Assembly: GCF_902497855.1 (NCBI RefSeq)
Contig: NZ_CABVHU010000011.1
Location: 186,001 to 250,000, forward strand
DNA: 64,000 bases
DNA from: Pseudomonas fluorescens
GTDB lineage: Bacteria > Pseudomonadota > Gammaproteobacteria > Pseudomonadales > Pseudomonadaceae
Direction: 5' to 3'
Of this stretch, positions 25,843 to 54,986 are shown piece by piece. The notes beneath the pieces were generated by a model. The model saw nothing but the letters and a program-made list of their open reading frames with translations. It had not been told where the DNA came from and searched no databases. A program made the translations under genes and the position numbers. Each line of letters begins with the position of its first letter. Position 1 is the first letter of the stretch.

Positions 25843-26170
25843 GAGGCCCTGAAAGTCAACAAACAAGCCTCAATCAAGCCTGAAATCTGCATTCAACGAC
25901 TCTCTAAGCCTCTCTCGTCCCCTTCAAGCCTGTCATCGGTCAACTAACTATGCTCCATGCGCATCAGGGGGATAGGTGCGTGGCGGCTCTTGTGATAACA
26001 TCCGGCGTTTTCCGAGGCAGTCCCGCGGGGTTGTCTTCACTGCGCAGATCCATGGCATAACTCGTTGATTTGTCGTAAGTCGTTGCACGGCACTCAGCCT
26101 GCAGCGGCGAGCTTCGTTCGTCCCATATGGATGTGACGAAGTTTCACCAGAAAAAGGAATCAGGCTTCTC
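25843..26170. other. gyrA leader region
   Basis: Some 330 bases without a gene. They must hold the gyrA promoter; a TTGTGATAACAT segment at about 25992-26003 could be a -10 region but no confident pair was found. AAAAGGAA just before the start is the likely ribosome site. Confidence 0.45.
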
Positions 26171-38684: not shown

Positions 38685-39761
38685 GTGAAAATTCTAGTAA
38701 CGGGCGGCGCCGGGTTTATCGGCTCGGCAGTCATCCGACATATCGTCTCCAACACTACTGACTCCGTCGTCAACGTCGATAAGCTTACTTACGCCGGGAA
38801 CCTCGAGTCATTGGCCGAGGTCAGCCAGAACTCGCGTTATGTGTTCGAACGCGTCGACATTTGCGACCGTGACCAGATCGACCGAGTCCTGCGTGAACAC
38901 CAACCAGATGCCATCATGCATCTGGCTGCAGAGTCCCATGTCGACCGCTCGATCTCCGGCCCGTCTGAATTCATTCAGACCAACATCATCGGCACTTACA
39001 CTCTGCTGGAAGCGGCCCGTCACTATTGGGCAGCGCTGGACGATGCGCGTAAAGCCGGCTTTCGGTTCCACCATATTTCGACTGACGAAGTGTACGGAGA
39101 CCTTGAAGGTCCGGAAGACCTCTTCACCGAAACCACGCCCTATCAGCCAAGTTCGCCATACTCTGCCAGCAAGGCCAGTTCCGATCACCTGGTTCGAGCA
39201 TGGAGTCGTACTTACGGCCTGCCGACCCTCGTCACCAATTGCTCGAACAACTACGGTCCGTGCCACTTCCCGGAGAAGTTGATCCCGCTGATCATTCTCA
39301 ATGCACTGGAAGGCAAGCCATTGCCGGTCTATGGCAAGGGCAATCAGGTCCGTGACTGGCTGTACGTCGAAGACCATGCCCGCGCACTGTACAAAGTCGT
39401 CACCGAAGGCGTTATCGGCGAGACTTACAACATCGGTGGTCATAACGAAAAGCAGAACATTGAAGTGGTGCATACCCTTTGTGCGCTGCTGGACGAACTG
39501 CGTCCAGACTCCGCTCATCGTCCACACGCCAGCCTGATCACCTACGTTCAGGATCGCCCGGGCCATGATCAGCGTTATGCGATTGACGCCAGTAAAATCC
39601 AGCGTGAGCTGGGGTGGACACCGGAAGAAACCTTCGAAACCGGCATCCGCAAGACTGTCGAATGGTACCTGAGCAACACTGAATGGGTTGCCCATGTGAA
39701 GAGCGGCAGCTACCAGCAGTGGATCGATCAGAACTACGCCGATCGTTCGAACAAAGCATGA
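38685..39761 (+). CDS. rmlB: dTDP-glucose 4,6-dehydratase
   Basis: A 358-residue extended SDR that converts dTDP-glucose to dTDP-4-keto-6-deoxyglucose. Features are the NAD motif [13 protein letters not shown] near residues 7-19, [12 protein letters not shown] near 82-93, [10 protein letters not shown] near 134, and catalytic [14 protein letters not shown] near 160-173. The start is GTG at 38685 with AAGGG upstream. It is first of rmlBDA; its stop overlaps the rmlD start (ATGA). It supplies the dTDP-rhamnose route and possibly other 6-deoxy sugars for O-antigen. Confidence 0.96.
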
Positions 39762-40651
39762 AAATCCTTCTGCTGGGAAAAAACGGCCAAGTGGGTTGGG
39801 AGTTGCAGCGCTCGCTTGCGCCGCTCGGCGAGCTGATCGCCCTTGATCGTCAAACGGTCGATGGTTTATGTGGCGACCTGGCTGATCTCGACGCCTTGCG
39901 CTCGACCATCCGCCAGGTAAAGCCTGACGTAATCGTCAATGCAGCTGCTTATACAGCCGTCGATAAAGCAGAGTCCGAAACCGAGTTGGCCGATCGTGTA
40001 AACGGCCACGCCTGCCGAGTCATGGCCGAAGAAGCTGCCTCCCTGGACGCGTGGCTGATTCATTACTCAACCGACTACGTCTTCAGTGGCCAAGGGTCGA
40101 CACCCTGGCAGGAGGCGGACGCAGTGGCGCCCGTGAATCATTACGGCACCAGCAAGCTGGCTGGTGAGCAAGCCATTATCGCCTCGGCGTGCAAGCATCT
40201 GATCTTCCGCACCAGTTGGGTCTATGGCGCTCGGGGCAACAATTTCGCGAAAACCATGCTGCGCCTGGCTAAAGATCGTGAAACGTTGAGCGTTATCGCA
40301 GACCAGATCGGAGCTCCGACGGGTGCAGACCTGATCGCCGATGTGACTGCACTGGCCATACAACAGGTCATGCAGCGCCCTGAATTAGCGGGCCTATATC
40401 ACCTGGCGTCCGCTGGCGAAGTGTCCTGGCACGGCTATGCCAGCCATGTGATCGGCTTTGCCAAAGCCAATGGTGAGCAACTCGCCGTTGCGGCGATCAA
40501 TCCGATTGAGACGACCGCGTACCCAACCCCTGCACGCCGCCCTCTGAATTCGCGTTTGAATACCCGGAAGCTGCGTGACAATTTCTGTCTACACTTGCCG
40601 GATTGGCAAAGTGGCGTAACCCGAATGCTAATGGAAGTTCTGAATAAATGA
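39758..40651 (+). CDS. rmlD: dTDP-4-dehydrorhamnose reductase
   Basis: A 297-residue reductase that performs the last step to dTDP-L-rhamnose. It shows the motif [14 protein letters not shown] at residues 4-17, [13 protein letters not shown] near 63-75, [10 protein letters not shown] near 104 and [10 protein letters not shown] near 128-137. The ATG at 39758 overlaps the rmlB stop, and its own stop overlaps the rmlA start in the same ATGA fashion, so the three are coupled. It needs RmlC to supply its substrate; rmlC is not in this operon but at 62409-62954. Confidence 0.95.
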
Positions 40652-41538
40652 CCACGACAAATCGTAAAGGCATCATCCTCGCGGGCGGCTCGGGCACTCG
40701 TTTGCACCCCTTGACCCTCGGTGTGTCCAAGCAGATGCTGCCGATCTACGACAAGCCGATGATCTTTTATCCGCTGTCGGTACTGATGCTCGCGGGTATG
40801 CGTGAAATCCTGATCATCTCCACTCCGGAAGATCTGCCGTGCTTTCGCAAACTGTTGGGCGATGGCAGTCTGTACGGCATCAAGCTGACCTACGCTGAAC
40901 AGCCTAGTCCAGACGGTCTGGCACAAGCCTTTATCATCGGCGAAAAGTTTATCGGCAAGGATCCATGCTGCCTGATACTGGGCGACAATATCTTTTACGG
41001 TCAGCACTTCTCGGATAATTTGCGTTCGGCCAGCACTCAAGAGCTTGGCGCGACGGTATTTGGTTATCACGTGTCCGACCCGGAACGTTTCGGCGTTGTG
41101 GAATTCGATGCAACGGGCAAGGCGCTGAGTATCGAAGAAAAGCCACTGAAGCCAAAATCCAACTATGCGGTGACAGGTCTGTATTTCTACGACAACGACG
41201 TTGTCGAGATTGCCAAGAGCATCAAGCCGTCCGAGCGTGGCGAACTGGAAATCACTGACATCAATCGTGCCTACCTAGAGCGTAATACGCTCAATGTCGA
41301 AATGCTAGGCCGCGGCTTCGCCTGGTTGGATACCGGCACCCATGATTCGCTGCTGGAAGCCAGTCACTTCGTGCACACCATCGAGCAGCGCCAAGGCTTG
41401 AAAGTGGCCTGCCTGGAAGAGATCGCCTACCACAACGGTTGGATCACTGCCGAGCAGTTGGGCACACAAGCTAACGCCCTGAAGAAGACTGGCTATGGTC
41501 AGTATCTGCAGAAACTGCTGGATTTACCTTCCCATTGA
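40648..41538 (+). CDS. rmlA: Glucose-1-phosphate thymidylyltransferase
   Basis: A 296-residue nucleotidyltransferase that makes dTDP-glucose from glucose 1-phosphate and dTTP, the entry step to dTDP-rhamnose. The signature [16 protein letters not shown] lies at residues 8-23, with GDNIFYG near 112 and [10 protein letters not shown] near 205. It ends the rmlBDA unit. A gap of 277 bases follows before wzz, with no clear gene. Confidence 0.97.
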
Positions 41539-41815
41539 GATGAGAGCGTTGTTTCTGGGCAACCATCGGATCCGTACATTGGGGGGCATGCTAGTCATAC
41601 AAATCAGTGTTGAAGTTTACTGGGCGCTTACGATCGTATGCAGTGTATCGAGAAGCTAGTTCATCGATCCTTGCCCAATGACCAGCATACTCAACGGGTA
41701 ATGTCGATGTTGATTCCCGGCTTCTGATGGCGTTTCGCTAAATCATATGAATGGATGCTGAAGAGGTAGAAGCTTGCGTCCAATCCACCGAAAAACTGAA
41801 AAGGTTAAACCTGAT
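41539..41815. other. Intergenic region before wzz
   Basis: No gene seen. It includes a TTG-started extension of wzz from 41774 that is not preferred. Presumably holds the wzz promoter. Confidence 0.4.
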
Positions 41816-42865
41816 ATGGCGAATAACCCGGCAACGATGCAGGGCGCGAATGAGATCAATCTGTTTGAATTGATTGTGGCGTTATGGGCTCAAAAATTTC
41901 TGATAATCAGCGTCACCTTGATCGTGACCTTAGCTGCAGCAATGTACGCTTTCTTTAGTAAGCCGATTTACGAAGCGCGTGTTTACCTGCAACCGCCTAC
42001 CTTGAACGGTATTGCTGATTTCAACTATGGCCGAACCAAGAATGCAGAGCTAACGCCCTTCACGATTAAAGATGTGTATGAGGTTTTCACTCGTAACCTG
42101 CAAAGTGAATCATTACGTCGGTCCTTTTTCAACGAGGTTTATTTGCCTTCACTACCTGCGTCCGAACGTGGCGGATCGCAGGATGCATTGTATTCCAGTT
42201 TTTTGAGAGCACTGACCATCGGTTTTCCTACTAAGGAGCAGCCAGATCGCTATTCCGTTATCGTTGAGGGCGAGGACCCTGCCCAAGTCACCGCTTGGAT
42301 AAAAACATTTATAGAAAGGGCGGGTGCTGCCGCGGAAAAGGAAATGATTAGCAATACCACCCGTGAAGCGGAAGTGCGGGCACGCAACTTTGGTCAACAG
42401 ATCAGTACCCTGCAAGAAACCGAAAGTCGAATTCGCCAAGACTCCATTACGCGATTGCGCGAAGCGCTGACAATTGCTGAGGCGATTGGCCTGCAGAACC
42501 CGCCCATTATTACTGGCAATCTTTCTGCAGAGGTTTCCGCTGCTATGGATGGGCAGCTAACCTATATGCGGGGTAGTAAGGCACTCAAGGCTGAAATTGA
42601 TAACCTTCAAAATCGTAAATCTGATGATCCTTTTATAGAGAAGTTAAGAGCGCTGCAAATCAAGCAAAGCTTTTATAATGACTTGAAGGTAAGCCCAGAC
42701 ACCGTATCGGTCTACCGCCAGGACGGTCCCATCGAACAGCCTGACCGCCCTACAAAGCCAAAAAAGGGCCTGATTATACTGCTGGGTCTGGTCTTGGGCA
42801 GCATGCTGGGCTTCATGATCGCGCTGGTTCGCCATTTGGTTCTGGTCAAGCTAAGCAGGGTTTGA
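41816..42865 (+). CDS. wzz: O-antigen chain length determinant (Wzz)
   Basis: A 349-residue polysaccharide co-polymerase. Helix 1 is near residues 25-46 (FLIISVTLIVTLAAAMYAFF). A large periplasmic domain with coiled coil (about 60-300) follows, and helix 2 comes near the C-terminus (GLIILLGLVLGSMLGFMIALV) after the proline-glycine segment PTKPKKG typical of Wzz. It sets the number of O units joined by Wzy. The ATG at 41816 is chosen because the conserved part begins soon after; a TTG start 14 codons earlier is possible. Wzz stands before the ops leader, so it may be expressed apart from the RfaH-controlled genes. Confidence 0.93.
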   Translation: MANNPATMQGANEINLFELIVALWAQKFLIISVTLIVTLAAAMYAFFSKPIYEARVYLQPPTLNGIADFNYGRTKNAELTPFTIKDVYEVFTRNLQSESLRRSFFNEVYLPSLPASERGGSQDALYSSFLRALTIGFPTKEQPDRYSVIVEGEDPAQVTAWIKTFIERAGAAAEKEMISNTTREAEVRARNFGQQISTLQETESRIRQDSITRLREALTIAEAIGLQNPPIITGNLSAEVSAAMDGQLTYMRGSKALKAEIDNLQNRKSDDPFIEKLRALQIKQSFYNDLKVSPDTVSVYRQDGPIEQPDRPTKPKKGLIILLGLVLGSMLGFMIALVRHLVLVKLSRV

Positions 42866-43550
42866 AATATTGGGAGTGAAATGCTCATTCCGGGTCGTTC
42901 TGAGAGGTAGCGTGGGCTCAACCCGATCCTGAATGCTACCAAAAGCAGCGGGGATAGTGTCCATGCGATCCGGACTGGGGCTGCCGTTATCCGCTAAGTC
43001 GGCTAGATCGGAGTGAGACTGATACCAGACATAAAAGTTGACGCTTTGCGCATGGGAACCACAAGGTTTGGTAGAATTTCCAGCCGACATGGCGGTTGGT
43101 TGTGAGAGATGAGGCGCGGGCTGCGGTATCGAGTAGGCCTAAAAATAGCACCGGCCGGGCTTAGGAAAACCTATACCTCTCAAAAGTCAGCGACAGAATT
43201 GCTTACAGTTTATAGACATTGCGGCAACGAGTGAGTGACTTCGGTCCTAATGTCCTTGGTCGGGTGTGTTAGTGAACACGGCGTTCTCAGGAAACCGACG
43301 GTAAATCCTGGGGCGGTAGCGTGTTTTTTATTTTCTTTCCATGGTGTCCGCTCTTTTTTGGGCAGGAAGCTCAAAGGTCAGAATAACGCGGGAAGATACC
43401 TACTACCGGCGAGGCAGGTCTGTCAGTTTGGCAGTTATCGTCAAATCATCCGGTTTACCGCCAACTCGACGATGCGACTGGAATAATCAACCGGCGTCGG
43501 CAACCTTGAGTCAATTGCAGAGTCGAGAAAGGTTCACATGAGTTATTAGA
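42866..43550. other. 685-bp untranslated leader between wzz and wzx
   Basis: No protein with support is encoded; frames on either strand are short and lack motifs. The right half carries a JUMPstart/ops element at 43299-43323 followed by a T-rich stretch (TTTTTTATTTTCTTTCC). A three-codon frame ATGAGTTATTAG at 43538-43549, preceded by GAAAGG, ends one base before the wzx start. The stretch is most likely a long leader of the wzx-wbpM operon. Confidence 0.6.
43299..43323 (+). promoter_or_regulatory. JUMPstart / ops element (RfaH recruitment)
   Basis: GGCGGTAGCGTG at 43312-43323 is an exact match to the ops core found in front of RfaH-controlled polysaccharide operons. The bases before it (CGGTAAATCCTGG) match the general pattern of the JUMPstart sequence, in which GGTA and CCAGG-like segments precede ops. 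It lies about 230 bases before wzx. In enteric bacteria RNA polymerase pauses here and RfaH joins it, allowing transcription through long AT-rich operons. Confidence 0.85.
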
Positions 43551-44852
43551 ATGTCTCTCAGAAAAAATACGTTATGGAATTTGTTGGGCAGCGGCGCACC
43601 ATTTTTGTTAGGAGCAGTCACGATACCTTTCTTGCTCAATAGAGCGGGTGTTGAGGTCTTTGGGATTTTAACGCTCGTTTGGGTCTTGATTGGATATTTT
43701 AGCTTGTTTGATTTTGGTCTCGGTCGTGCGTTAACGCAAACCGTAGCTCAAAAACTTGCGAGAGGTACAATCGATGAAGTGTCAAGAGTTATAAATCTTG
43801 GTCTTATCATGGTTTTAGTCGCTGGCTTATTTGGAGGTGCACTTCTCGCAGTTGCTGCCATACCTTTAGGGGGTACCTGGTTAAGTGTAAGTGTTGGACT
43901 ACGGCATGATGTCATTGTATCTCTCTTCATCGCATCAATAGGTATACCTCTTACTACCCTTACTTCTGGGCTGCGGGGTGTCCTAGAAGCTTATGAAGAG
44001 TTTGGGAAGGTTAATATACTGAGGGTGTTGTTGGGGCTTGCAAATTTTGGTATGCCCGCTATCACGGTATTAATTTGGGGCCCGGCTCTGCAATGGATGG
44101 TCGCGAGTTTGGTCTTGGCAAGGTTTATTGTTTTCTTAGCGCATGTTTATTTGGTGTATCAGAAAACAGAGTTTTTTTGGATACCGCCAAAGTCGCATCC
44201 AGAGGAGGCCAAAGGTTTGCTGACTTTTGGATCTTGGATGACATTATCGAATCTAATAAGTCCATTGATGGTGACGGCGGACAGGTTTGTGATTTCATCT
44301 GTAGTTGGCGCTAGTTTGGTGGCCTATTACACTGTTCCATTTGAAGTTCTGATCAGGTTTCTGATCTTGCCTGCGGCACTAACTGCCGCCCTGTTTCCAA
44401 AATTGGCAGCACTAATTGTGGTGGATATTGCCAGTGCGGAGAAGCTTTTTAAGAAGTCTGTATTGTTGATAGCAGGAGTAATGTTAGTTGTTTGTGCAAT
44501 CGCTTCAGTGGGTTCATTATGGGGGATGACACTATGGTTGGGGCAAGATTTCGCGGGCCGCTCTTGGCATTTGGCATCAATAATGGCAGTTGGAATCCTG
44601 TTTAATTCAATAGCACAAGTTCCTCATGCTGCTGTGCAAGCTGCAGGAAATGTAAAAGGCACTGCCCTTGTTCATTTGGCGGAGTTTTGTATCTACTTTC
44701 CGTTGTTATTCATATCTGTACATAAATTTGGCTTGGTGGGAGCTGTCTTGGTCTGGGTATTGAGAGCCTTTATCGACATGTCTCTAATGTTTTTTCTAGC
44801 GCACAACGTATTTTCAGGGAATAAGAAGGAAGCCATATGCGCCATGAAGTAG
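43551..44852 (+). CDS. wzx: O-antigen flippase (Wzx)
   Basis: A 433-residue membrane protein with about twelve helices and the polysaccharide-translocase start LRKNTLWNLLGSGAPFLLGAVTIPFLL. YFSLFDFGLGRALTQ near residues 44-58 is also typical of Wzx. It would flip the undecaprenyl-linked O unit to the periplasmic face. The gene is markedly AT-rich compared with its surroundings, as is usual for O-antigen-specific genes. The start ATG at 43551 has only a weak ribosome site; a better GAAAGG serves a three-codon frame ending just before it. The next gene overlaps by 16 bases. Confidence 0.88.
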   Translation: MSLRKNTLWNLLGSGAPFLLGAVTIPFLLNRAGVEVFGILTLVWVLIGYFSLFDFGLGRALTQTVAQKLARGTIDEVSRVINLGLIMVLVAGLFGGALLAVAAIPLGGTWLSVSVGLRHDVIVSLFIASIGIPLTTLTSGLRGVLEAYEEFGKVNILRVLLGLANFGMPAITVLIWGPALQWMVASLVLARFIVFLAHVYLVYQKTEFFWIPPKSHPEEAKGLLTFGSWMTLSNLISPLMVTADRFVISSVVGASLVAYYTVPFEVLIRFLILPAALTAALFPKLAALIVVDIASAEKLFKKSVLLIAGVMLVVCAIASVGSLWGMTLWLGQDFAGRSWHLASIMAVGILFNSIAQVPHAAVQAAGNVKGTALVHLAEFCIYFPLLFISVHKFGLVGAVLVWVLRAFIDMSLMFFLAHNVFSGNKKEAICAMK

Positions 44853-45655
44853 CCGTTGGTATTGTCGTGTATAACGCAGGCGACAACCTGCTTGATCGCT
44901 TGAAGATCACCGTGTCGGCAGGCTACAGCGTCTATATTTTTGATAATTCACCTTCTAATGGTACAGTCAAAGAGTTGGCTAAACGGTACGAAGGTATTAA
45001 CTATTTTACCTGCGGTAGCAACGTAGGCCTGGGATATGGTATCTCAACTGTGTGCGCCCAGGCTGAAGTAGACGATTTTAAGGCGATGGTATTTTTCGAT
45101 CAAGATACGGGGTTCAGTGAAGAAACCTTAGATTTTATTGAGCAATTTTACTTAGATAGGAAAGAGCTTGCCAATAAGTACAGTGCCTTTCTTTTCAATG
45201 CAAAAGACAATGTCGGTCAGCCTCAGAATGTGGAAGGGTTGAGGGATGTCAGCTTGGCGATAAATAGTGGAAGTCTCTACTTTCTTGAGAATCTCAAGCG
45301 GCAGGGGTGGCATGATTGCAGCTATTTTGTAGATGGTGTGGATTATAAGTTCTGTCTGGATTCGGCCAGGCATCATATGAAAATAGGGGAGTGCTCTTAC
45401 ACGCCAGGATTTGATCATGTAACGGAGCAAGAAGATAGCATATATTCTCTGTTTGGGAAGGATTATCAACTTAGGCCTTATTCTTGGCGGCGCATCATGG
45501 ATACCTCAATTTCGAGTATGAGGTTAATCGGATCTTCGGTGCTTAGTGGAGAGTGGAAGTTTTCCAAGATTTTAGTTCGGCTGTTTTCGATATACCTCGT
45601 CACCCAAATTTATGTTAGGGTTGTTAATTTCTGGAGGCGCAAGAAAAATGTCTGA
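44837..45655 (+). CDS. Family-2-like glycosyltransferase of unknown specificity
   Basis: A 272-residue GT-A glycosyltransferase. It begins VAVGIVVYNAGDNLLDRLK, has GSNVGLGYG near residues 58-66 for nucleotide binding, the metal motif FFDQDTGF near 79-86 and YFVDGVDYKFCLD near 163-175. The pattern is that of rhamnosyltransferase-like family 2 enzymes, though the donor cannot be assigned. AAGGAAG precedes the ATG, which overlaps wzx by 16 bases, and the stop overlaps the next transferase by 8. AT-rich, part of the imported core. Confidence 0.85.
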   Translation: MRHEVAVGIVVYNAGDNLLDRLKITVSAGYSVYIFDNSPSNGTVKELAKRYEGINYFTCGSNVGLGYGISTVCAQAEVDDFKAMVFFDQDTGFSEETLDFIEQFYLDRKELANKYSAFLFNAKDNVGQPQNVEGLRDVSLAINSGSLYFLENLKRQGWHDCSYFVDGVDYKFCLDSARHHMKIGECSYTPGFDHVTEQEDSIYSLFGKDYQLRPYSWRRIMDTSISSMRLIGSSVLSGEWKFSKILVRLFSIYLVTQIYVRVVNFWRRKKNV

Positions 45656-46865
45656 TTCGGGCAATGCAGAAAATATAAATTATACTGTTTTTACAGTCTG
45701 CAATTTGGCGTATTTGCCGAAGGCATTAGTTTTAGCCGAGTCATTAGCGGCCTTCAACCATCCGAAGTTGAAAATCTTTTTATTTGATAAGAAAGTTGAG
45801 GGCGAACTACCACATGAGTTGGCAGAGTTTGAGTGGGTAGAAGATCTTGGGTTAACAAATTTTAATCAATATGCATTTAAGTACGATATTACCGAGCTTA
45901 GTACAAGTCTCAAGCCGTGGTTGACGTTGAGGCTTCTAGAATCAACCAAAAAAGTAATATTTTTAGATCCTGATACATGTTTGTTCAGTTCGCTAGATCC
46001 GATTTTGGGTTTGCTCGAAGAAAAAGAAATAATACTGACGCCACATTATGTTACGCCTCATACAGACGGCGATATAGGTATGATGAGGTTTGGTTCTTTT
46101 AATTTGGGTTTTTTTGCGGTTAATAGTTCTTTAGAGAGCCTGCGATTTTTAAAGTGGTGGAATGAACGATGTCTTGATCTTTGTTATTTTGAAACTCAAT
46201 TTGGCTTGTCTACAGATCAGAAATGGGTAAGCATTGCGCCGTGTTTTTTTCCGACACTACATATTTCTTTTGATCTTGGCTATAATGTTGCATTTTGGAA
46301 TGCGCATGAGCGTATAATTTCAGTCAACCCTAATGGCGGATATCTGGTTAATAACAAATACCCCTTGATATTCTTTCATTTTAGCTCATTTGATGAGAAA
46401 AATCCGAACTTGTTGAGTAAGCGTGCGTTTGCCGACAGAGAATCGGGGCGTACAGATTATACAGAACTGGCTAACAGCTATAATAATTCGCTGCAGCGAT
46501 TGAAGATCAAGATTTCAAAAACAAAGTATGGGTTTGACTTCATGTCTAACGGTGATTATATATCACCGACACTCCGGCGTGCCTACGCTAGTGTATTAAG
46601 TGACCTGCCGCTCGGGCATGATCCGTTCGACTCAAATGGTATAGTCGCGGATTTTGCAAAAAAGAATTATCTTGTTAGCGATAAATCAGGATATCAACCT
46701 AGTGGTTTCGGTGACGTTGAAAGTAATAAAAGAAAATTTTATTTGGTTAATAAATTGATGAAGATGGCGCTCTATGCACTCGGGCCAAACCGGTTTATGA
46801 ATTTTTCTCGTTTGCTCGTTTATCTTTCAAGCTTCAGGCTGAATCGTGATATGTGGAAGCTATAG
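45648..46865 (+). CDS. Glycosyltransferase-like protein of unknown specificity
   Basis: A 405-residue protein. It begins INYTVFTVCNLAYLPKALVLAESL near residues 8-31, as in GT-A enzymes acting on nucleotide sugars, and the metal motif VIFLDPDTCLFSSLD lies near residues 102-116. LTPHYVTPHTDGD and FNLGFFAVNSS follow, which resemble GT8-like folds. It probably adds one sugar of the O unit. The ATG at 45648 overlaps the previous stop; a TTG start 12 codons earlier is less likely. The C-terminal 120 residues have no recognised motif. AT-rich like its neighbours. Confidence 0.8.
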   Translation: MSDSGNAENINYTVFTVCNLAYLPKALVLAESLAAFNHPKLKIFLFDKKVEGELPHELAEFEWVEDLGLTNFNQYAFKYDITELSTSLKPWLTLRLLESTKKVIFLDPDTCLFSSLDPILGLLEEKEIILTPHYVTPHTDGDIGMMRFGSFNLGFFAVNSSLESLRFLKWWNERCLDLCYFETQFGLSTDQKWVSIAPCFFPTLHISFDLGYNVAFWNAHERIISVNPNGGYLVNNKYPLIFFHFSSFDEKNPNLLSKRAFADRESGRTDYTELANSYNNSLQRLKIKISKTKYGFDFMSNGDYISPTLRRAYASVLSDLPLGHDPFDSNGIVADFAKKNYLVSDKSGYQPSGFGDVESNKRKFYLVNKLMKMALYALGPNRFMNFSRLLVYLSSFRLNRDMWKL

Positions 46866-46977
46866 TGTTTTAATAGAATCCTAGTGGTGAGAGTTGGTTC
46901 AATCAAAGCTGGCTCCGAGAGCTGTTAGGTAATGTGGGCGCGCCGAAGGGATTCAACACATTCCCTGCGCGCTCAAG

Positions 46978-48285
46978 TTGCGAAGTTTTTACTATCAGAA
47001 TCGTGCGGATCTGACATTGTATAATCAAATCGAAAATTCCAAAGCACCGAAGCTAGGCATACTATCAGTTTATTTATTGTGGATTGCGTGCCTGTTTGAT
47101 CCGATTGGACAAATTTATCATATTAAATTTATCGCTATAGGTTTGGTTTATGTTGTTCTTGGTGTAACCGTAGCTCTCGAAAGCGCCAGAATGCGCATTG
47201 ATATTTTCTATATTTTTTCTTTGGTATTGTTTGTTCTTTATCTTCCTGGATATGGTTTGTTATTGGCTGTATTGCGAGGAGGAGTTCCAGGTGAGTTTAT
47301 AGACACCTCGTATATATCTGCCTCGGTCTATATGGTTTGCTCTTTGTTGTATTTGGCTCCTGGATATATGTGGTGGGCCTATCGTGCTCTCGTAGTATCG
47401 TTGCGTCTGTTATGTGTTGTGATTTTAGTAAGTTTTCTTTTTACCGCCGTCGATATTTTTACAGACTTCGTTTTCTTTTTTGTTGAGAATGGTGTGGCTT
47501 ACATTGGTGAGCGAGAATATGCGGGCGTATCTTTTTACTATATCTACTTTATTGCATCGCCTATGCTGGTTTTTTTACTGTGTCATGAAACATGGAAAAT
47601 GTTGGAAAGACCCTCTTTAAAATCATGCGTAGCTCTGCTTTTACCGGTATTTGCATTGTTCTTGTCCGGTACCCGGGCTAGCATAATACTATCATTCTGC
47701 GCGCCCTTTTTTGTGTGGATGTGGTATCGGTTTGGTCGAGGGGCAATTGTTCTTGTTTTTTGCACCATTGTATTGGCGATGACGGCGTTGTTATTTATCG
47801 ATGTGCCTATAATATCCGAAATGTTTGGTGCTAGAGAGCAGAGTAACGCTACAAAAATAGGATATCTCAGCAGTTACAGTGAAATTTTCGCTAGTCCTCT
47901 AACAGTGCTATTTGGGCAGGGGTTCAATGCACATGTATGGTCCCCAGTTTTACAAAATATGTTGCCAGAAGGCGCCAGTAAAACAGAACTTACTTATATA
48001 GAATTGCTTAGGGTGTTTGGGTTGTTCGGTAGTGGAATGTTGGCATTTTTGCTTGCTTATCTTTCACTCAGCGGGAAAGTAGCGAGGTCAAGCTACCCAT
48101 GGATTGCTCCTTCTATATTTCTATATTCTGCTGTATCTGCTATTAATCCCTACATATTTTCTTCGAATGGGATGCTTTTGATCGGTTTTGCGACTGCTGC
48201 CATTGCATTCACGCCGCCTGGAGCCATCGGAGACTCATTGCAGGATAATAGTGGCGATGGAACGATTGTTCCTAATAGGCTATGA
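46978..48285 (+). CDS. wzy: Probable O-antigen polymerase (Wzy)
   Basis: A protein of up to 435 residues with ten or more membrane helices and one large loop (about residues 275-340, SEMFGAREQSNATKIGYL onward), the usual design of Wzy polymerases. The segment LFLSGTRASIILSF near 224-237 resembles the O-antigen ligase/polymerase consensus. Sequence identity among Wzy proteins is low, so the call rests on topology and on being the only such protein in the cluster. The start is uncertain: the frame opens with TTG at 46978 without a clear ribosome site, and the first internal ATG is far inside (near residue 72). Confidence 0.78.
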   Translation: MRSFYYQNRADLTLYNQIENSKAPKLGILSVYLLWIACLFDPIGQIYHIKFIAIGLVYVVLGVTVALESARMRIDIFYIFSLVLFVLYLPGYGLLLAVLRGGVPGEFIDTSYISASVYMVCSLLYLAPGYMWWAYRALVVSLRLLCVVILVSFLFTAVDIFTDFVFFFVENGVAYIGEREYAGVSFYYIYFIASPMLVFLLCHETWKMLERPSLKSCVALLLPVFALFLSGTRASIILSFCAPFFVWMWYRFGRGAIVLVFCTIVLAMTALLFIDVPIISEMFGAREQSNATKIGYLSSYSEIFASPLTVLFGQGFNAHVWSPVLQNMLPEGASKTELTYIELLRVFGLFGSGMLAFLLAYLSLSGKVARSSYPWIAPSIFLYSAVSAINPYIFSSNGMLLIGFATAAIAFTPPGAIGDSLQDNSGDGTIVPNRL

Positions 48286-48324
48286 TCATACGATTAGTAC
48301 TTTTGACTTTATAAGGGTTTGGCA

Positions 48325-49359
48325 ATGTTCGAGAATAAAACGCTCCTTATTACCGGTGGGACGGGTTCCTTTGGGAACGCCGTGTTAAAGAGATTTTTGT
48401 CTACTGAGATTAATGAAATTCGGATTTTTAGCAGGGATGAAAAAAAACAAGATGATATGCGCAAGCGTTATGCCAGTTCAAAACTCAAATTTTATATTGG
48501 TGACGTTCGTGACTATCAGAGTGTTTTAAATGCAACCCGAGGCGTTGATTACATTTTTCATGCAGCAGCGCTCAAGCAAGTCCCTTCTTGCGAGTTTCAC
48601 CCAATGGAGGCAGTTAAAACCAATGTCATCGGGACTGACAACGTGCTCGAAGCTTCGATCCAAAATGAAGTAAGACGTGTTGTATGTCTGAGCACGGATA
48701 AGGCTGTATATCCTATTAATGCGATGGGCATCTCAAAAGCCATGATGGAAAAGGTCATGGTCGCAAAGTCACGAAATGTCGATGAAGCCAAAACAGTTAT
48801 TTGTGGTACACGCTACGGCAATGTCATGGCTTCGCGCGGTTCGGTCATCCCTTTGTTTATTGATCAAATTAGAGCAGGTCAATCGCTGTCAATTACAGAT
48901 CCAAACATGACTCGCTTTATGATGACTCTGGCTGATGCAGTCGATCTTGTTCTGTACGCTTTTGAAAATGGTAACAATGGAGATCTCTTCGTTCAGAAGG
49001 CGCCGGCTGCGACGGTGGAAACCCTTGCTCTCGCTTTGACGTCCATGTTGGGGCAGCCCGAACATCCGATCCAGATAATCGGTACGCGACACGGTGAAAA
49101 ACTATATGAAGCTCTCTTGAGCCGAGAAGAAATGGCGTGTGCAGAAGATATGGGCGATTACTTTCGAGTACCACCAGATTTGCGAGATTTGAATTACAGT
49201 AAATTTGTGGAGCAAGGTGAAGAGAAAATTTCTACTATGGAAGATTATAATTCGCATAATACTGAGCGTTTGGACGTTGAGGGCATGAAAAAATTACTCT
49301 TGAAACTTGATTTTATGCGTGCCATTCAGCGCGGCGAGCACGCGGTACCTGAGGAGTAA
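48325..49359 (+). CDS. wbjB: UDP-GlcNAc 4,6-dehydratase/5-epimerase (WbjB/CapE type)
   Basis: A 344-residue extended SDR that starts UDP-N-acetyl-L-fucosamine synthesis from UDP-GlcNAc. The NAD motif is LLITGGTGSFGNAVLKRF at residues 7-24. The active-site region LSTDKAVYPINAMGISK has Met in place of the usual Tyr of YxxxK, as known for CapE-type enzymes. The ATG at 48325 follows AAGGG. GC content rises again here. It is first of wbjB-wbjC-wbjD, the conserved three-gene set for UDP-L-FucNAc found in P. aeruginosa O11 and in Staphylococcus type 5 capsule loci. Confidence 0.92.
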   Translation: MFENKTLLITGGTGSFGNAVLKRFLSTEINEIRIFSRDEKKQDDMRKRYASSKLKFYIGDVRDYQSVLNATRGVDYIFHAAALKQVPSCEFHPMEAVKTNVIGTDNVLEASIQNEVRRVVCLSTDKAVYPINAMGISKAMMEKVMVAKSRNVDEAKTVICGTRYGNVMASRGSVIPLFIDQIRAGQSLSITDPNMTRFMMTLADAVDLVLYAFENGNNGDLFVQKAPAATVETLALALTSMLGQPEHPIQIIGTRHGEKLYEALLSREEMACAEDMGDYFRVPPDLRDLNYSKFVEQGEEKISTMEDYNSHNTERLDVEGMKKLLLKLDFMRAIQRGEHAVPEE

Positions 49360-49362
49360 AGC

Positions 49363-50481
49363 ATGAAAGTATTGATCACCGGTGCCAATGGATTTGTTGG
49401 CAAGAACCTTATTGCTCATCTGCAAGAGCGAAAAGACATCGAGGTGTTGCGATTCTGTCGTGAAGATGAAATCGCCAGTCTGCATTCACTCGTATCTGAG
49501 GTGGACTTTATTTTCCACTTGGCCGGTGTCAATCGTCCTCAGCATGTCGAAGAATTTAAGGTCGGTAACGCCGATTTGACTCAAACGTTATGCGCAGCGG
49601 TCGCGGCGAGTGGACGTAATGTTCCTCTACTGTATACCTCCTCAATACAAGCTGAGTTGGGCAACGCTTACGGCGATAGTAAACGCGAAGCTGAGGACGC
49701 TCTGCTGAACCTTTCTACGAAATTCGGCAATAGTGTGCATTTGTTCAGATTGCCAAACGTATTTGGGAAGTGGGCTCGGCCTAACTACAATTCGGCCGTA
49801 GCGACTTTCTGTCATAACATTGCAAATAATTTGCCTGTCAGTATCAACGACGCCAATGCGAAAATTTCACTGGTTTACATTGACGACGTAATAAGCAGTT
49901 TTATTTCTGTAATGGACGGTGAGCAGTCAGGTAATCCGTTTGTACAGGTCGAACCAAATTACTCGATAACCGTAGGTGAGCTCTCCGCGCAACTGTATGC
50001 ATTTAAAGAGAGTCGGCAGTCGATGGTGACTGCACGCGTGGGTACTGGTCTCGTGCGGGCGTTGTACTCGACCTATCTCAGCTATTTAAGGCCGGAAGAG
50101 TTCACTTACGAAGTTCCTAAGTACGGAGACGCTCGCGGCGTTTTCGTGGAGATGCTCAAAACCAAGGATTCGGGTCAGTTTTCATACTTCACCGCGCACC
50201 CGGGTATTACTCGAGGCGGTCATTATCATCATACGAAAACAGAAAAGTTTCTGGTTATTTCTGGTAAAGCCTGCTTCCGATTTCGCCACATAATATCGGG
50301 CGAATTCTATGAGTTATTCACAGATGGTGAATCACCAAAAATTGTTGAGACCGTGCCAGGTTGGAGCCATGACATCACCAACGTTGGCGAAAGTGAAATG
50401 ATCGTCATGCTGTGGGCGAACGAGATTTTTGATCGTGAGCTCCCGGACACCTACACTATGCCAGTGGGCACCGAAGCCTGA
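49363..50481 (+). CDS. wbjC: UDP-L-FucNAc pathway reductase/epimerase (WbjC/CapF type)
   Basis: A 372-residue two-domain enzyme. Residues ~1-245 form an NAD(P)-dependent SDR reductase (LITGANGFVGKNLIAHL at the start, YGDSKREAEDALL near 105-117). Residues ~250-372 form a cupin with metal-binding HYHHTKTEKFLVISGKA near 287-303. In CapF the cupin epimerises C3 and the SDR domain reduces C4. It starts 4 bases after wbjB and is followed by wbjD, the epimerase that completes UDP-L-FucNAc. Confidence 0.93.
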   Translation: MKVLITGANGFVGKNLIAHLQERKDIEVLRFCREDEIASLHSLVSEVDFIFHLAGVNRPQHVEEFKVGNADLTQTLCAAVAASGRNVPLLYTSSIQAELGNAYGDSKREAEDALLNLSTKFGNSVHLFRLPNVFGKWARPNYNSAVATFCHNIANNLPVSINDANAKISLVYIDDVISSFISVMDGEQSGNPFVQVEPNYSITVGELSAQLYAFKESRQSMVTARVGTGLVRALYSTYLSYLRPEEFTYEVPKYGDARGVFVEMLKTKDSGQFSYFTAHPGITRGGHYHHTKTEKFLVISGKACFRFRHIISGEFYELFTDGESPKIVETVPGWSHDITNVGESEMIVMLWANEIFDRELPDTYTMPVGTEA

Positions 50482-50504
50482 TCGTATTAGGAATGAGTAT
50501 TACA

Positions 50505-51635
50505 ATGAAAAAGTTAAAGATCGTTACTGTTGTGGGTACCCGTCCTGAAATCATTCGCTTGTCGCGCGTCATCACCGCGCTGGATAAGTATTGCGATCAC
50601 GTACTGGTTCACACAGGTCAAAATTACGATTATGAGTTGAATGAAATATTCTTCCAGGATCTAGGGATCCGCAAACCGGATCATTTTCTCAATGCCGCGG
50701 GCAGCAATGGTGCTGAGACCATAGGGAATGTGATCATTTCTGTGGACCGAGTCCTTGCTTCTGTTCAGCCTGAAGCTTTGCTGGTTTTGGGCGATACCAA
50801 TAGTTGCATGGCTGTCATTCCTGCCAAGCGTCGCAAGATTCCAACTTTTCACATGGAAGCTGGTAATCGTTGTTTTGATATGCGAGTGCCTGAGGAAATC
50901 AACCGGCGGATCGTAGATCATACTGCTGACATTAATCTGACTTACAGCACTATTGCGCGCGATTACTTGCTCAAAGAAGGTCTTTCACCTGATATGGTTA
51001 TCAAGACTGGTAGCCCGATGTTTGAAGTCCTGAATTATTATCGCGATGGAATCGAATCTTCGGACGTGTTGAAACGTTTGGGGCTTGAGGCTGGTAAGTT
51101 TTTTGTAGTAAGCGCACACCGCGAAGAGAATATCGATTCTGACAAAAATCTCCTGAAATTAGTCGATGTTCTCAATACCGTAGCGACAACCTTCGGTTAT
51201 CCGGTCATTGTTTCTACTCATCCACGCACTCAGAAGCGTGTTGATGCCATGGGAATTGTATTTCACGAAAACGTGAAACTTCTTAAACCTTTGGGTTTCA
51301 AAGATTACAACAAGCTGCAGTTGGAATCCAAAGCGGTGCTTTCTGACAGCGGTACCATCAGCGAAGAGTCTTCGATACTTAATTTTCCTGCGTTGAATAT
51401 ACGTGAGGCCCACGAGCGTCCAGAAGGAATGGAGGAGGCTGCGGTGATGATGGTGGGGCTCGAGGTCGAGCGAGTACTGCAAGGACTGATGGTTCTGGAT
51501 ACGCAAGCTTCCGGTACGGAGCGTACCCTGCGCCTGGTCGAAGATTACAACATGCCCAATGTGTCCGAAAAAGTAGCCCGGATCGTTCACAGTTATACCG
51601 ACTATGTAAATCGTATCGTCTGGAAGCGCTACTAA
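50505..51635 (+). CDS. wbjD: UDP-N-acetylglucosamine 2-epimerase-like (WbjD/CapG type)
   Basis: A 376-residue non-hydrolysing 2-epimerase fold. The start MKKLKIVTVVGTRPEIIRLSR and the active-site segments EAGNRCFDMRVPEEINRRIVDH (near 126-147) and SDSGTISEESSIL (near 282-294) are present. It turns UDP-L-PneNAc (2-acetamido-2,6-dideoxy-L-talose) into UDP-L-FucNAc, completing the wbjBCD route. ATG 50505 is preferred to ATG 50493 because the TTAGGA ribosome site would leave no spacer for the earlier codon. Confidence 0.93.
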   Translation: MKKLKIVTVVGTRPEIIRLSRVITALDKYCDHVLVHTGQNYDYELNEIFFQDLGIRKPDHFLNAAGSNGAETIGNVIISVDRVLASVQPEALLVLGDTNSCMAVIPAKRRKIPTFHMEAGNRCFDMRVPEEINRRIVDHTADINLTYSTIARDYLLKEGLSPDMVIKTGSPMFEVLNYYRDGIESSDVLKRLGLEAGKFFVVSAHREENIDSDKNLLKLVDVLNTVATTFGYPVIVSTHPRTQKRVDAMGIVFHENVKLLKPLGFKDYNKLQLESKAVLSDSGTISEESSILNFPALNIREAHERPEGMEEAAVMMVGLEVERVLQGLMVLDTQASGTERTLRLVEDYNMPNVSEKVARIVHSYTDYVNRIVWKRY

Positions 51636-51649
51636 TTCGAGTTGTGATT

Positions 51650-52903
51650 ATGCCTGAGAAGAAACTGAGAATCTTGGTGGTTACGCAATATTTTTGGCCG
51701 GAAAATATGCGTATAAACGATCTGGTTCGTGATTTTATCGATAAAGGACATTCGGTCACCGTGTTGACGGGTCTGCCTAATTACCCGGAAGGAGCAGTAT
51801 TCGATGAATTTCTGGCAGCGCCTGAGCGTTTCAATGACTACTTTGATGCCAGAATTGTCCGGGTACCGATGCTTCCGCGAGGTAAGCGCAGCATTAATTT
51901 GGCATTGAATTATCTCAGTTTCTTTACTAGCGCCTCAGTCGTTGGTGCCTACAAGTTGCGTGGCGAGCAGTTCGACGCAGTCTTCGTATATGCAGTATCA
52001 CCGATCATGGCTGCCATTCCGGCATTGGTGATTGGTCGGTTGAAAAAAACCCCCGTATTTGTGTGGGTTCTTGATCTCTGGCCTGAAACACTCAGAGCTG
52101 TAGGCGTTTTGAAAAAACCTGCGCTGCTGTCGTTGGTCGGTAAAATGGTTTCATGGATTTACAACCGTACTGATTATTTGCTTCTGCAGTCGCATGGTTT
52201 TTTTGACAATGTTCAAAAATATTGTACGAAAGATATATCTCCCCAGCGACTAGTCTATTTTCCAAGTTGGGCTGAAGATGATTTTTCTGCAGTCGAAGAT
52301 CGAGACTCAACCTTGCTGGCACGTGACAATACGGTCTTTACTGTATTGTTCGCGGGCAATCTAGGAGAAGCACAAGATCTTCCCGCTGTGTTGGATGCGG
52401 CCGAAGCTTTGGTTGACAAGGTAGCTGTGCGCTGGGTAATTGTTGGCGATGGGCGCATGAGCCATTGGCTAAGTCAACAAGTCCAGTCCAGAGGGCTAGG
52501 TAACGTGTTGCTATTAGGTCGACATCCTCTGGAGGAGATGCCAGCTCTTTTCGCTTGTGCAGATGCTTTGCTCGTGTCACTTAAGACCAACGACGTTTTT
52601 GAGAAGACAATACCTGGAAAAGTACAGGCTTATCTTGCCTCAGGCAGGCCGCTGTTAGGGATGATCAACGGAGAGGCAGCAAGAGTGATTGGAGACTCGG
52701 GTGCCGGTCTCACATGCTCTTCTGGTGATTCGAAAGGCTTGGCAGAGATTACGTTGGCGCTGGCGCAATCGGACGCAAATCAGTTGAAGGCAATGGGTGA
52801 ATCCGGTCGGCAATATTACTTGAGTAATTATTCGAAACCCCTCCTTCTAGCCCGACTGGAAGATCTTTTCAGAAGCGCCACCTTAAGAAAGGCCAGCCAT
52901 TGA
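51650..52903 (+). CDS. wbjE: GT4-family glycosyltransferase, probable L-FucNAc transferase
   Basis: A 417-residue GT-B glycosyltransferase. It begins KLRILVVTQYFWPENMRIND and has the donor-binding C-terminal domain with FAGNLGEAQDLPAVLDAAE near 225-243 and the EX7E-like region IPGKVQAYLASGRPLLG near 318-334. It follows wbjBCD as in P. aeruginosa O11, so it most likely transfers L-FucNAc to the lipid-linked first sugar. The start could also be GTG at 51644. Stop and next start overlap. Confidence 0.88.
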   Translation: MPEKKLRILVVTQYFWPENMRINDLVRDFIDKGHSVTVLTGLPNYPEGAVFDEFLAAPERFNDYFDARIVRVPMLPRGKRSINLALNYLSFFTSASVVGAYKLRGEQFDAVFVYAVSPIMAAIPALVIGRLKKTPVFVWVLDLWPETLRAVGVLKKPALLSLVGKMVSWIYNRTDYLLLQSHGFFDNVQKYCTKDISPQRLVYFPSWAEDDFSAVEDRDSTLLARDNTVFTVLFAGNLGEAQDLPAVLDAAEALVDKVAVRWVIVGDGRMSHWLSQQVQSRGLGNVLLLGRHPLEEMPALFACADALLVSLKTNDVFEKTIPGKVQAYLASGRPLLGMINGEAARVIGDSGAGLTCSSGDSKGLAEITLALAQSDANQLKAMGESGRQYYLSNYSKPLLLARLEDLFRSATLRKASH

Positions 52904-53865
52904 TGCAGTATTCTATTTTGTTGACTGGGGCGACGGGGTTCGTTGGCGGCGCCATTCTCAAGCGCTTATACAACGAAAAAAAATATCCTGTTGCTGCGGT
53001 TGTCCGAGGTGAATCCCAGCTTCCGGTACAGGACATTCCGACGGTACGCATCGGCTCCTTTGATGGCGAAACCCAGTGGAAGGAAAATCTCATAAAATTT
53101 AACGTGATTATTCACTCTGCTGCACGGGTTCACGTCATGAATGAGGCCGAGTCCGATCCGTTGGCGGCGTTTCGCAAAGTGAATGTTGAAGGTACTTTGA
53201 ATCTTGCTCGTCAGGCGGCCGCCTCTGGTGTGCGGAGATTCATTTTTATCAGTTCTATTAAGGTCAATGGAGAGGGGACGACTGCGGGCGCTGCCTACAC
53301 TGGCGATGATGCTCCCGCTCCGGTAGATCCCTACGGTATTTCGAAAATGGAGGCTGAACAGGGACTTCGACAGCTTTCTGCGGAAACCGGGATGGAGGTG
53401 GTTATTATCCGGCCGGTCTTGGTCTATGGACCGGGAGTCAAAGCAAATTTTCTGAGCATGATGCGCTGGCTGGACAAGGGAATTCCCCTACCTTTCGGCG
53501 CAATTTACAATAATCGTAGTCTCGTTGCTCTCGATAATCTGGTAGATCTGGTAGTGACCTGTATTAGTCACCCAGCAGCTGCCAATCAGACCTTTCTTGT
53601 GAGCGATGGGGAGGATTTATCCACGACCGCATTGCTTAGCAGGATGGCGAAAGCGCTTCACAAGCCGGCGCGACTTATTCCTGTACCCAGCTGGGTGCTT
53701 CAGGGTGGCGCAGCGTTGTTGGGTAAGAAAGCACTCTCCCAGCGTCTATGTGGATCGCTGCAAGTCGATATTTCCAAGACCCGCACTCTTTTAGGCTGGA
53801 CGCCGCCAGTCAGTGTTGATGAGGCTTTGGCGGCAACTGCATTACATTTTCGGGAACATCAATAA
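52903..53865 (+). CDS. wbpV: NAD-dependent epimerase/dehydratase, WbpV/WbjF type
   Basis: A 320-residue SDR with LLTGATGFVGGAIL near residues 6-19, HSAARVHVMNE near 70-80, SSIKVNGEGT near 121 and catalytic YGISKMEAEQGL near 146-157. This family reduces UDP-4-keto-6-deoxy-GlcNAc, made by WbpM, to UDP-D-FucNAc or UDP-D-QuiNAc, the donor for WbpL. Which of the two is not decidable from sequence by eye. The ATG overlaps the wbjE stop, and wbpL follows two bases later. Confidence 0.9.
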   Translation: MQYSILLTGATGFVGGAILKRLYNEKKYPVAAVVRGESQLPVQDIPTVRIGSFDGETQWKENLIKFNVIIHSAARVHVMNEAESDPLAAFRKVNVEGTLNLARQAAASGVRRFIFISSIKVNGEGTTAGAAYTGDDAPAPVDPYGISKMEAEQGLRQLSAETGMEVVIIRPVLVYGPGVKANFLSMMRWLDKGIPLPFGAIYNNRSLVALDNLVDLVVTCISHPAAANQTFLVSDGEDLSTTALLSRMAKALHKPARLIPVPSWVLQGGAALLGKKALSQRLCGSLQVDISKTRTLLGWTPPVSVDEALAATALHFREHQ

Positions 53866-53867
53866 CA

Positions 53868-54902
53868 ATGATTTACTTGTGGCTAATTCCAACTGTTGCC
53901 GTTCTTTCATTGGGGCTCACTGCAGCTTTACGTCGTTATGCTCTGAGTCGAAGCATTATCGATATCCCTAATGCGCGAAGCTCTCACTCCATCCCAACCC
54001 CACGCGGTGGTGGAGTGGCAATCGTCATCGCTTTTCTCGTATCGCTACCCGTTCTTGGTTATGCAGGGTTAGTTCCATGGTCGCAGCTCATTGCTGTAGG
54101 CGGCGCGGGTGTTTTAGTCGCCGTAATAGGGTTTATGGATGATCATGGTCATATAGCAGCTCGTTGGCGGTTGCTTGGTCATTTCAGTGCAGCTGTATGG
54201 GCGTTGTTATGGACAGGAGGCTTTCCTCCTATAGTCCTTTTTGGTCTGAGCGTAGACCTGCACTGGATTGGCCATATTCTTGCGGCAATTTATCTGGTTT
54301 GGGTTCTCAATCTCTGCAACTTCATGGATGGGATTGACGGAATTGCCAGCGTTGAAGCTTTGTGCGTGTGCCTTGGCGCCTGCTTGCTTTATTGGATCAA
54401 CGGCGTTCCAACACTGATCTGGGGCCCGCTGGTTTTGGCAATGGCGGTTCTCGGTTTCCTTTATTGGAATTTCCCTCCTGCGCGCATTTTTATGGGGGAT
54501 GCGGGGAGTGGTTTCCTGGGGGTTGCCCTGGGTGTGTTGTCTCTACAGGCCGCCTGGCAATCGTCAGAACTATTCTGGGCATGGTTGATTCTTTTAGGCG
54601 TCTTCATAGTCGATGCCACGTTTACTCTGTTACGTCGATTGATCCGCGGCGACAAAATTTACGAGGCGCATCGTAGTCACGCCTATCAGTTCGCCTCTCG
54701 ACAGTTTGGCAAACATTTACCTGTGACCTTGGCTGTAGGTGCAATCAATCTGTTCTGGTTGCTCCCCATTGCTTACTGGGTGACCTACTGGGGACTTGAT
54801 GGCGCTCTTGGTTTGGCTGTGGCGTACTTCCCATTGATCATTCTCGCTGTGAAATTCCACGCAGGGCAGCTCGAAAGCTCCGTCTCGGCGTCATCCAGTT
54901 AA
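53868..54902 (+). CDS. wbpL: Undecaprenyl-phosphate glycosyl-1-phosphate transferase WbpL
   Basis: A 344-residue membrane enzyme with about eleven helices of the WecA/MraY type. Signatures are RSSHSIPTPRGGGVAI near residues 38-53, the aspartate motif NFMDGIDGIASVEA near 150-163, FMGDAGSGFLG near 204-214 and the basic loop HRSHAYQFASRQF near 266-278. It starts O-antigen synthesis by putting the first D-6-deoxy-HexNAc phosphate on undecaprenyl phosphate. It is followed by wbpM after 84 bases. Confidence 0.95.
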   Translation: MIYLWLIPTVAVLSLGLTAALRRYALSRSIIDIPNARSSHSIPTPRGGGVAIVIAFLVSLPVLGYAGLVPWSQLIAVGGAGVLVAVIGFMDDHGHIAARWRLLGHFSAAVWALLWTGGFPPIVLFGLSVDLHWIGHILAAIYLVWVLNLCNFMDGIDGIASVEALCVCLGACLLYWINGVPTLIWGPLVLAMAVLGFLYWNFPPARIFMGDAGSGFLGVALGVLSLQAAWQSSELFWAWLILLGVFIVDATFTLLRRLIRGDKIYEAHRSHAYQFASRQFGKHLPVTLAVGAINLFWLLPIAYWVTYWGLDGALGLAVAYFPLIILAVKFHAGQLESSVSASSS

Positions 54903-54986
54903 GCTTTGGAGACTGATTTAGCAGGTGTCGGTTGGGTTCGGAAAGGTACAATGATCGAGTCATATCCAGTTTAGGAGCGGGACAAG

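Follow-up and report, generated by a model that had tools for sequence, protein, structure and literature searches.

In E. coli, RNA polymerase pauses at the ops sequence, where RfaH is loaded and then suppresses polarity downstream (PMC7593976), and as of 2020 this was the only organism for which the recruitment of RfaH was understood in detail (PMC7593976). Other specialised NusG paralogues are resident in the loci they serve, namely, UpxY in Bacteroides, TaA in Myxococcus and the RfaH cluster CL7 in Shewanella (PMC7593976). In the Pseudomonadaceae, Wang et al. (2020; PMC7593976) found RfaH to be patchily distributed, with about 60% lacking it, duplications and ongoing loss, and envelope genes to be frequent neighbours of most RfaH clusters; section 11 of their survey describes no Pseudomonas DNA target, and the word 'JUMPstart' does not occur in the main text. 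Also in print are an exopolysaccharide (EPS) locus of P. stutzeri with an RfaH-domain protein, and rfaH genes beside surface loci of Azotobacter. Further cited literature comprises PMC2864571, PMC5532660 and PMC4465626. Among titles and the openings of abstracts, a scope outside which most subscription journals fall, we found no report of RfaH/ops at a Pseudomonas O locus.

We analysed a stretch of 64,000 nucleotides of a Pseudomonas fluorescens genome (contig NZ_CABVHU010000011.1, positions 186,001 to 250,000), hereafter the window, in whose O-antigen locus an element of this kind occurs. As in the JUMPstart/ops-RfaH system of the Enterobacteriaceae (Rfam RF01707), a 3' core, GGGGCGGTAGCGTG, follows a short hairpin and precedes polysaccharide genes, and RfaH is encoded in the genome. 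However, the sequence and the loop of the hairpin differ, which lowers the score of the window copy under the Rfam model (see below), and in Pseudomonas, unlike in the Enterobacteriaceae system, rfaH usually lies inside the locus that it targets. This residence of a specialised NusG paralogue within the long operon served is shared with UpxY, TaA and CL7, from which the Pseudomonas lineage differs by coming with an ops/JUMPstart site, and the window locus by having the site without the gene. The patchy presence of RfaH and its envelope-gene neighbours are in line with the survey of Wang et al. (PMC7593976). We consider it likely that the element heads the O-unit operon wzx-wbpM and that an RfaH encoded on another contig of this genome, C23, acts on it in trans, so coupling O-antigen and EPS. 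The features of the locus are as follows.

38685-41538, + strand: rmlB, rmlD and rmlA, upstream of the element (NCBIfam)
41774-42865, + strand: wzz, chain-length determinant, upstream of the element (Pfam Wzz, 66.6 bits)
42866-43281, + strand: gap between wzz and the element, the position of rfaH in relatives (from their layout)
42896-42914, + strand: weak element-like piece without a hairpin, 30 bp past the wzz stop (covariance model R1, 17.9 bits, E 0.0078 over 312 kb)
43047-43079, + strand: promoter-like stretch AAGGTTTGGTAGAATTT, common with the region upstream of rfaH at locus L220
43282-43323, + strand: complete JUMPstart-type element of 42 bp, hairpin plus ops (R1, 68.5 bits), a block common to other loci
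43288-43310, + strand: hairpin with arms CAGGA (43288-43292) and TCCTG (43306-43310) and a 13-nt loop (pair counts)
43312-43323, + strand: ops core GGCGGTAGCGTG, an exact match, equal to the 3' end of the Rfam JUMPstart consensus
43439-43525, + strand: decayed 5' fragment of rmlB, between the element and wzx (blastx-type match to RmlB of locus L130)
43551-56996, + strand: O-unit genes wzx to wbpM, all on one strand with gaps of at most 112 bp (open reading frames, family matches)

Elsewhere in the window, and unrelated to the element, the Rfam gyrA RNA (RF01740) matches at 26073-26159 with 83 bits.

The exact ops core reported in an earlier sequence-only reading of this DNA was confirmed at 43312-43323, and a 12-mer search found it to be the sole exact copy in the window. 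It forms the last 12 bases of the 42-bp element, and the JUMPstart element that the same reading placed at 43299-43323 is real in kind, but those coordinates cover only the 3' part of 43282-43323. A 5-bp hairpin stands directly 5' of GGGGCGGTAGCGTG, the Pseudomonas form of the JUMPstart core, and RF01707 can be aligned to 43279-43323 so that the hairpins coincide (21.5 bits, E 0.04 per 735 bases), below the gathering score of 35 bits, at which there were also no matches in eight further loci, seven of them element-bearing. The element has the marks of the family, namely, a hairpin directly before GGGGCGGTAGCGTG, whose five-pair helix shows changes on both sides, and a position before polysaccharide genes (wzx-wbpM here; rml, wzx or EPS genes elsewhere). 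On sequence grounds we take it to be a Pseudomonas variant of JUMPstart, not to be filed as an Rfam member. In an alignment of 12 distinct rows, 98.3% of the cells of the hairpin were paired and two pairs had changes on both sides, with 6 of 500 shuffles as high; in 32 distinct rows, 98.7% were paired (0 of 500 shuffles as high; 2 of 500 for pairs with both-side changes), counts that lean towards the model because this larger alignment (A3) was fitted to the model's structure. The covariance model, R1, was built from a 14-row alignment (A2) from which a locus with a shorter loop (L038) and a close relative of C23 (L061) were excluded, and the R1 scores of the window copy and several relatives are not independent, since those copies built the model. 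The 77 sites of the GTDB pattern scan described below were chosen with the hairpin fixed and were kept out of the covariation analysis.

Applied to the window up to E 1, R1 returned only the element at 43282-43323 and the weak piece at 42896-42914, which may be either a decayed element copy or a chance match. Neither this search nor the exact one found a copy before rmlB or wzz, in agreement with the sequence-only reading. The 12-mer GGCGGTAGCGTG alone is not beyond chance genome-wide, since it occurs twice in 7.4 Mb and a reversed control pattern also occurs twice, whereas the longer 42-bp element is. We compared the wzz-wzx gap with 15 other loci, which had been selected for the 14-mer GGGGCGGTAGCGTG and, on visual inspection, for a hairpin, the loop and upstream bases being unused in the choice. 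This gave a single matching block of about 42 bp (best E 2e-15), which in 13 loci extends over 41-53 bp (81-98%) and in the remaining two, L038 and L059, is weaker; outside it there were two matches, of 16-17 bp, with E-values of 0.026 and 0.32. The element of Azotobacter chroococcum (L206), in a locus ordered ihfB-wzz-rfaH-element-wzx, is identical to the window copy at 42/42 positions, and that of the O locus of G069 (L057) at 41/42. In 149 Pseudomonas genomes the 14-mer GGGGCGGTAGCGTG occurs at 29 places; sorted by eye, 16 have the hairpin, with an rfaH match in 8 of these 16 3-kb loci, and 13 are without it, with an rfaH match in none. A chance match as the whole explanation was ruled out by the 42-bp block, the second copy in the genome and the co-occurrence with RfaH (the latter two described below).

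Downstream, wzx starts at 43551, 227 bases after the ops core (the sequence-only reading gave 230), and the map bears out the division of the locus proposed there, with rmlBDA and wzz before the signal and wzx-wbpM after it. This run extends 13.7 kb beyond the element, with a GC content of 40-47% across approximately its first 9 kb; an AT-rich run on one strand is the kind of target that would be expected for RfaH, and we infer that wzx-wbpM is the RfaH-dependent unit. The rmlB fragment at 43439-43525, whose reading frame contains an internal stop, matches at 55% over 29 aa the RmlB encoded after the rfaH-element pair in L130 (32.0 bits, versus 30.0 for the best of 200 shuffles). Because a decayed rmlB start occupies the interval from the element to wzx, it is probable that the element formerly stood at the head of an rmlB gene. 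That a decayed rmlB start follows the element while intact rmlBDA precedes wzz is also a sign of past replacement in the O locus. Upstream of the element, the promoter-like stretch at 43047-43079 matches the region upstream of rfaH at L220 (33 bp, 85%) and that at L191 (18 bp, E 0.025), that is, two of up to 47 compared rfaH upstream regions. It lies about 245 bp from the ops region in the window and about 857 bp from it in L220, a difference close to the length of an rfaH gene and in keeping with a deletion of rfaH, judged from this one locus and the 18-bp match at L191. The stretch is absent from the list of a simple sigma-70 scan, whose sole match in 42750-43700 (0.7 expected by chance) is at 43523-43552, past the element. 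Were it a promoter, transcription from it would not cross ops, which is a point against the RfaH reading. No intrinsic terminator was found in 42750-43700, where 1.1 were expected by chance.

The sequence-only reading regarded the position after wzz as unusual, which turned out not to be the case. In relatives, the order of the O locus is ihfB-..-wzz-rfaH-JUMPstart-O-unit genes. Eight of 20 fetched element loci are the rpsA-ihfB O locus, and in all eight rfaH lies between the wzz region and the element, although it is damaged in two (truncated in L136 and in two pieces in L144); the same holds for rfaH between wzz and the element at 13 of 13 sites of the GTDB scan that have ihfB in the stretch, two loci being common to both sets. 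The element is thus conserved in relatives whose locus is of this kind; a lack of such conservation would, by that reading, have refuted it. At L220, where ihfB does not occur within 2 kb upstream, the order rmlBDA-wzz-rfaH-element is that of the window with rfaH present. Since 'after wzz' is the ordinary place of the element in Pseudomonas, it is the missing rfaH that sets the window locus apart, and this absence, the unusual point of the locus, had gone unseen. No rfaH remnant was found in the gap at 42866-43281, where the best rfaH blastx match (18.1 bits) is far under the best shuffles. The gene was presumably lost from this locus, rather than never there. None of 56 other genomes has the same wzz-wzx gap, and therefore the orphan state of the window element is undatable and could reflect recent decay.

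Both an rfaH homologue and a further ops site, which the sequence-only reading proposed to search for, exist in this genome. Besides NusG, it encodes two further NusG-family proteins, on contigs C23 and C6, which score 188.4 and 161.5 bits, respectively, above the NCBIfam RfaH cut-off (TIGR01955, 144.5 bits), and which are below the UpxY cut-off. At E 0.01 or better the genome has only two elements, that of the window and one at G000:C23:49764-49805, which is identical to the window copy at 40/42 positions and contains the other exact copy of GGCGGTAGCGTG. The latter lies 600 bp downstream of the intact C23 rfaH in an EPS cluster with the order wzc - rfaH - element - sugar transferase - Wzx-like flippase - Wzy-like - Wza - YjbH, further genes being interspersed. 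Likeness of the elements does not itself single out the C23 RfaH, because the copies at L206 and L057 are closer still. In a tree of 99 RfaH rows, which has long branches and many weakly supported forks, the C23 RfaH falls in a group of nine whose other eight members all come from element-bearing genomes. It keeps the E. coli positions K10, R16, Q24, T72, R73, E48, I93, F130, R138 and L142, but has N for H20 and NWHP for HTTT (65-68), departures that count against it. We take R16, Q24, T72, R138, L142, H20 and HTTT 65-68 to be functional positions of RfaH. Contact with ops is made by K10 and R73, and autoinhibition involves E48, I93 and F130 (PMC7593976); the former two are kept in 47/47 RfaH proteins from the loci of the GTDB scan, and the latter in 3/3 cases in the C23 RfaH. 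A single AlphaFold prediction from a 28-row alignment, for the L215 protein (93% identical to the C23 RfaH), gave a beta-barrel CTD (mean pLDDT 86.4), not the autoinhibited helical form, so that an autoinhibited trans-acting factor is not favoured by the model. In a 2026 preprint it is proposed that beta-barrel predictions of this kind may be genuine and accompany RfaH proteins that act in cis (PMC13015549).

With R1 and a threshold of E 1e-13, 18 sites were identified among the 149 genomes. They fall in 17 genomes, of which 16 encode an over-cut-off RfaH, as compared to 45/149 overall (Fisher p 7e-9; 2e-8 without our own genome); the 17th, G060, encodes an RfaH of 143 bits with an internal stop. 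A draw of 398 Pseudomonas genomes, including these 149, yielded, at a threshold of E 1e-8, 68 sites distributed over 61 genomes, 58 of them with an over-cut-off RfaH versus 132/398 overall (Fisher p 7.5e-29) and the remaining three with a sub-cut-off RfaH; because the genomes are related, these p-values overstate independence. Relaxing the threshold to E 1e-4 gave 77 sites in 67 genomes, 61 of these with an over-cut-off RfaH. An rfaH gene lies within 10 kb of 69 of the 77 sites; at 45 of these it is immediately upstream, in the same orientation and at most 1 kb away. The GTDB pattern scan, which has several genomes in common with the 398, found 77 sites in 76 stretches from Pseudomonas, Azotobacter, Stutzerimonas, Halopseudomonas and Serpens, and in addition one each from Alcanivorax, Marinobacterium and Marinospirillum. 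In these stretches of up to 8 kb, rfaH is visible at 56/77 sites, and 20 of 20 genomes without it in the stretch (several of them also among the 398) carry an over-cut-off RfaH in the genome. Among ihfB-linked loci, the element scores 60.8-69.3 bits under R1 where rfaH is intact (6/6) and 32.6-33.6 bits where it is absent or damaged (G361, G125 and G035), which suggests that the element may decay without RfaH, with the reservations that five of the six intact loci are in R1 and that the EPS-type elements of G037 and G088, with intact rfaH, also score about 33 bits. The three low-scoring copies, at L280 (G361), L144 (G125) and L136 (G035), are degenerate elements of O loci whose rfaH is absent, broken or truncated; in G361 the ops 12-mer is kept, yet there is no RfaH match.

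Orphan elements are not confined to the window. Of the 77 sites in the 398 genomes, 8 lack an rfaH gene at a distance of 10 kb or less, namely, those of the window, G356, G132, G264, G276, G364, G125 and G361. The rfaH gene of G356 is on another contig, and G125 and G361 have no RfaH match at E 1e-20, G125 having rfaH in pieces beside the element. In G132, G264, G276 and G364 a second site stands directly after wzc of another polysaccharide cluster, with rfaH far off beside the other element; in G132, the one genome in which O-locus identity was checked, the locus of the rfaH-bearing element is the O locus (L129). P. sagittaria, P. oryzagri and P. linyingensis have the wzz-element arrangement without rfaH, ihfB not being present in the 6.5-7.4 kb upstream, and a single over-cut-off RfaH on another contig with its own adjoining element; in the latter two species a wzx match follows the orphan element, and in P. 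oryzagri some 25 kb separate a third element (L182) from rfaH. In A. vinelandii and A. chroococcum, an element before wzc lies 1.5 Mb from RfaH or on another contig. Orphan JUMPstart sites with RfaH elsewhere in the genome were thus seen in ten other genomes. As a separate observation, on two MAG contigs (L169/L218, matching G242:C12 in length, and L231/L237, matching G208:C27) identical elements recur two or three times at a spacing of a few kb, together with partial copies of rfaH; this may reflect either tandem duplication or cassette exchange at the element.

For the window locus, RNA polymerase starting at an upstream promoter would pause at ops, be loaded with RfaH and be carried through the long AT-rich wzx-wbpM operon, and rmlBDA and wzz, which precede the signal, should be unaffected by RfaH. 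Without an rfaH gene in front of the element, the locus would have to draw its factor from another part of the genome, most likely from the C23 gene, beside the genome's only other element; one RfaH would then couple the expression of O-antigen and EPS. We think it unlikely that the element acts in trans with the C6 RfaH instead, or with both. The C6 protein is above the cut-off and keeps K10, Q24, R73, E48, F130 and R138, and in its wider group one row (L133, genome G120), the next outward from its closest group, adjoins a variant JUMPstart and has no GCGGTAGCTT in its 17 kb. However, its closest group in the tree has six rows, and of the other five, four come from element-free genomes and one, L266, from a genome whose second RfaH is element-linked. 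Moreover, this lineage has a sequence of its own, GTGCGGTAGCTTTG, an ops-like 14-mer without the JUMPstart hairpin. It occurs upstream of rfaH in all six rows (in our genome at G000:C6:37134-37147, - strand), and 26 of its 37 occurrences in the 398 genomes lie 194-326 bp before a same-strand rfaH. Furthermore, in C6:18000-37500 the sole 9-mer resembling GGTAGCGTG (one mismatch) is GGCAGCGTG at L008:12528, which is fewer than expected by chance. The C6 lineage and GTGCGGTAGCTTTG look like a second, differently addressed RfaH pair.

It is also improbable that the element is a relic, the O genes being transcribed without any loading of RfaH after rfaH had gone from the locus. Such a history would fit the lack of an adjoining rfaH, the rearranged junction shown by the rmlB fragment, the decay seen in the three ihfB-linked loci with absent or damaged rfaH, and the single promoter-like scan match downstream of the element. 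On the other hand, the window copy scores like those of the intact-rfaH loci (five of these and the window copy being in the model), and the genome has kept an rfaH gene whose own partner site is nearly the same in sequence. More doubtful still is the view that the element is kept mainly as a short homology block for recombination of O and EPS cassettes, whatever RfaH does. It is consistent with the confinement of between-locus similarity to about 42 bp and with the repeated copies on the two MAG contigs, but it leaves unexplained both the covariation of the hairpin and the 58/61 co-occurrence with RfaH; in any case, a role in recombination and a role with RfaH do not exclude each other. Tentatively, and with slightly more doubt than belief, we propose a broader pattern: rfaH and JUMPstart would form a portable two-part module in surface-polysaccharide loci of Pseudomonas and relatives, and a locus may lose rfaH, keep the site and rely on the rfaH of another locus, thereby linking O-antigen and EPS, with the gene resident in the EPS locus in one species (this genome) and in the O locus of another (G132). 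Separate channels could then coexist in one cell, as they may in this genome, if each of two RfaH lineages has its own site (GGCGGTAGCGTG with the hairpin, and GTGCGGTAGCTTTG without).

Of the 132 sampled Pseudomonas genomes that have an over-cut-off RfaH, 61 contain a mapped element (E 1e-4 or better) as a predicted RfaH target, and elements with and without a local rfaH constitute a natural experiment on action in cis and in trans. If the proposal is true, the expression of both O-antigen and matrix polysaccharide would depend on a single elongation factor in some pseudomonads, and surface polysaccharides could be rewired by the movement of rfaH between loci or by its loss. An orphan site is also present in Azotobacter vinelandii, which is tractable in the laboratory. 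Apart from the two RfaH lineages of this genome, the tree contains a third group, in which a search extending about 1.5 kb from rfaH revealed no common GGTAGC-type or ops-like site. This clade of 14 rows (L097-L107, L118, L122 and L124) comes from element-free genomes, in which its rfaH genes lie near wzc-like genes.
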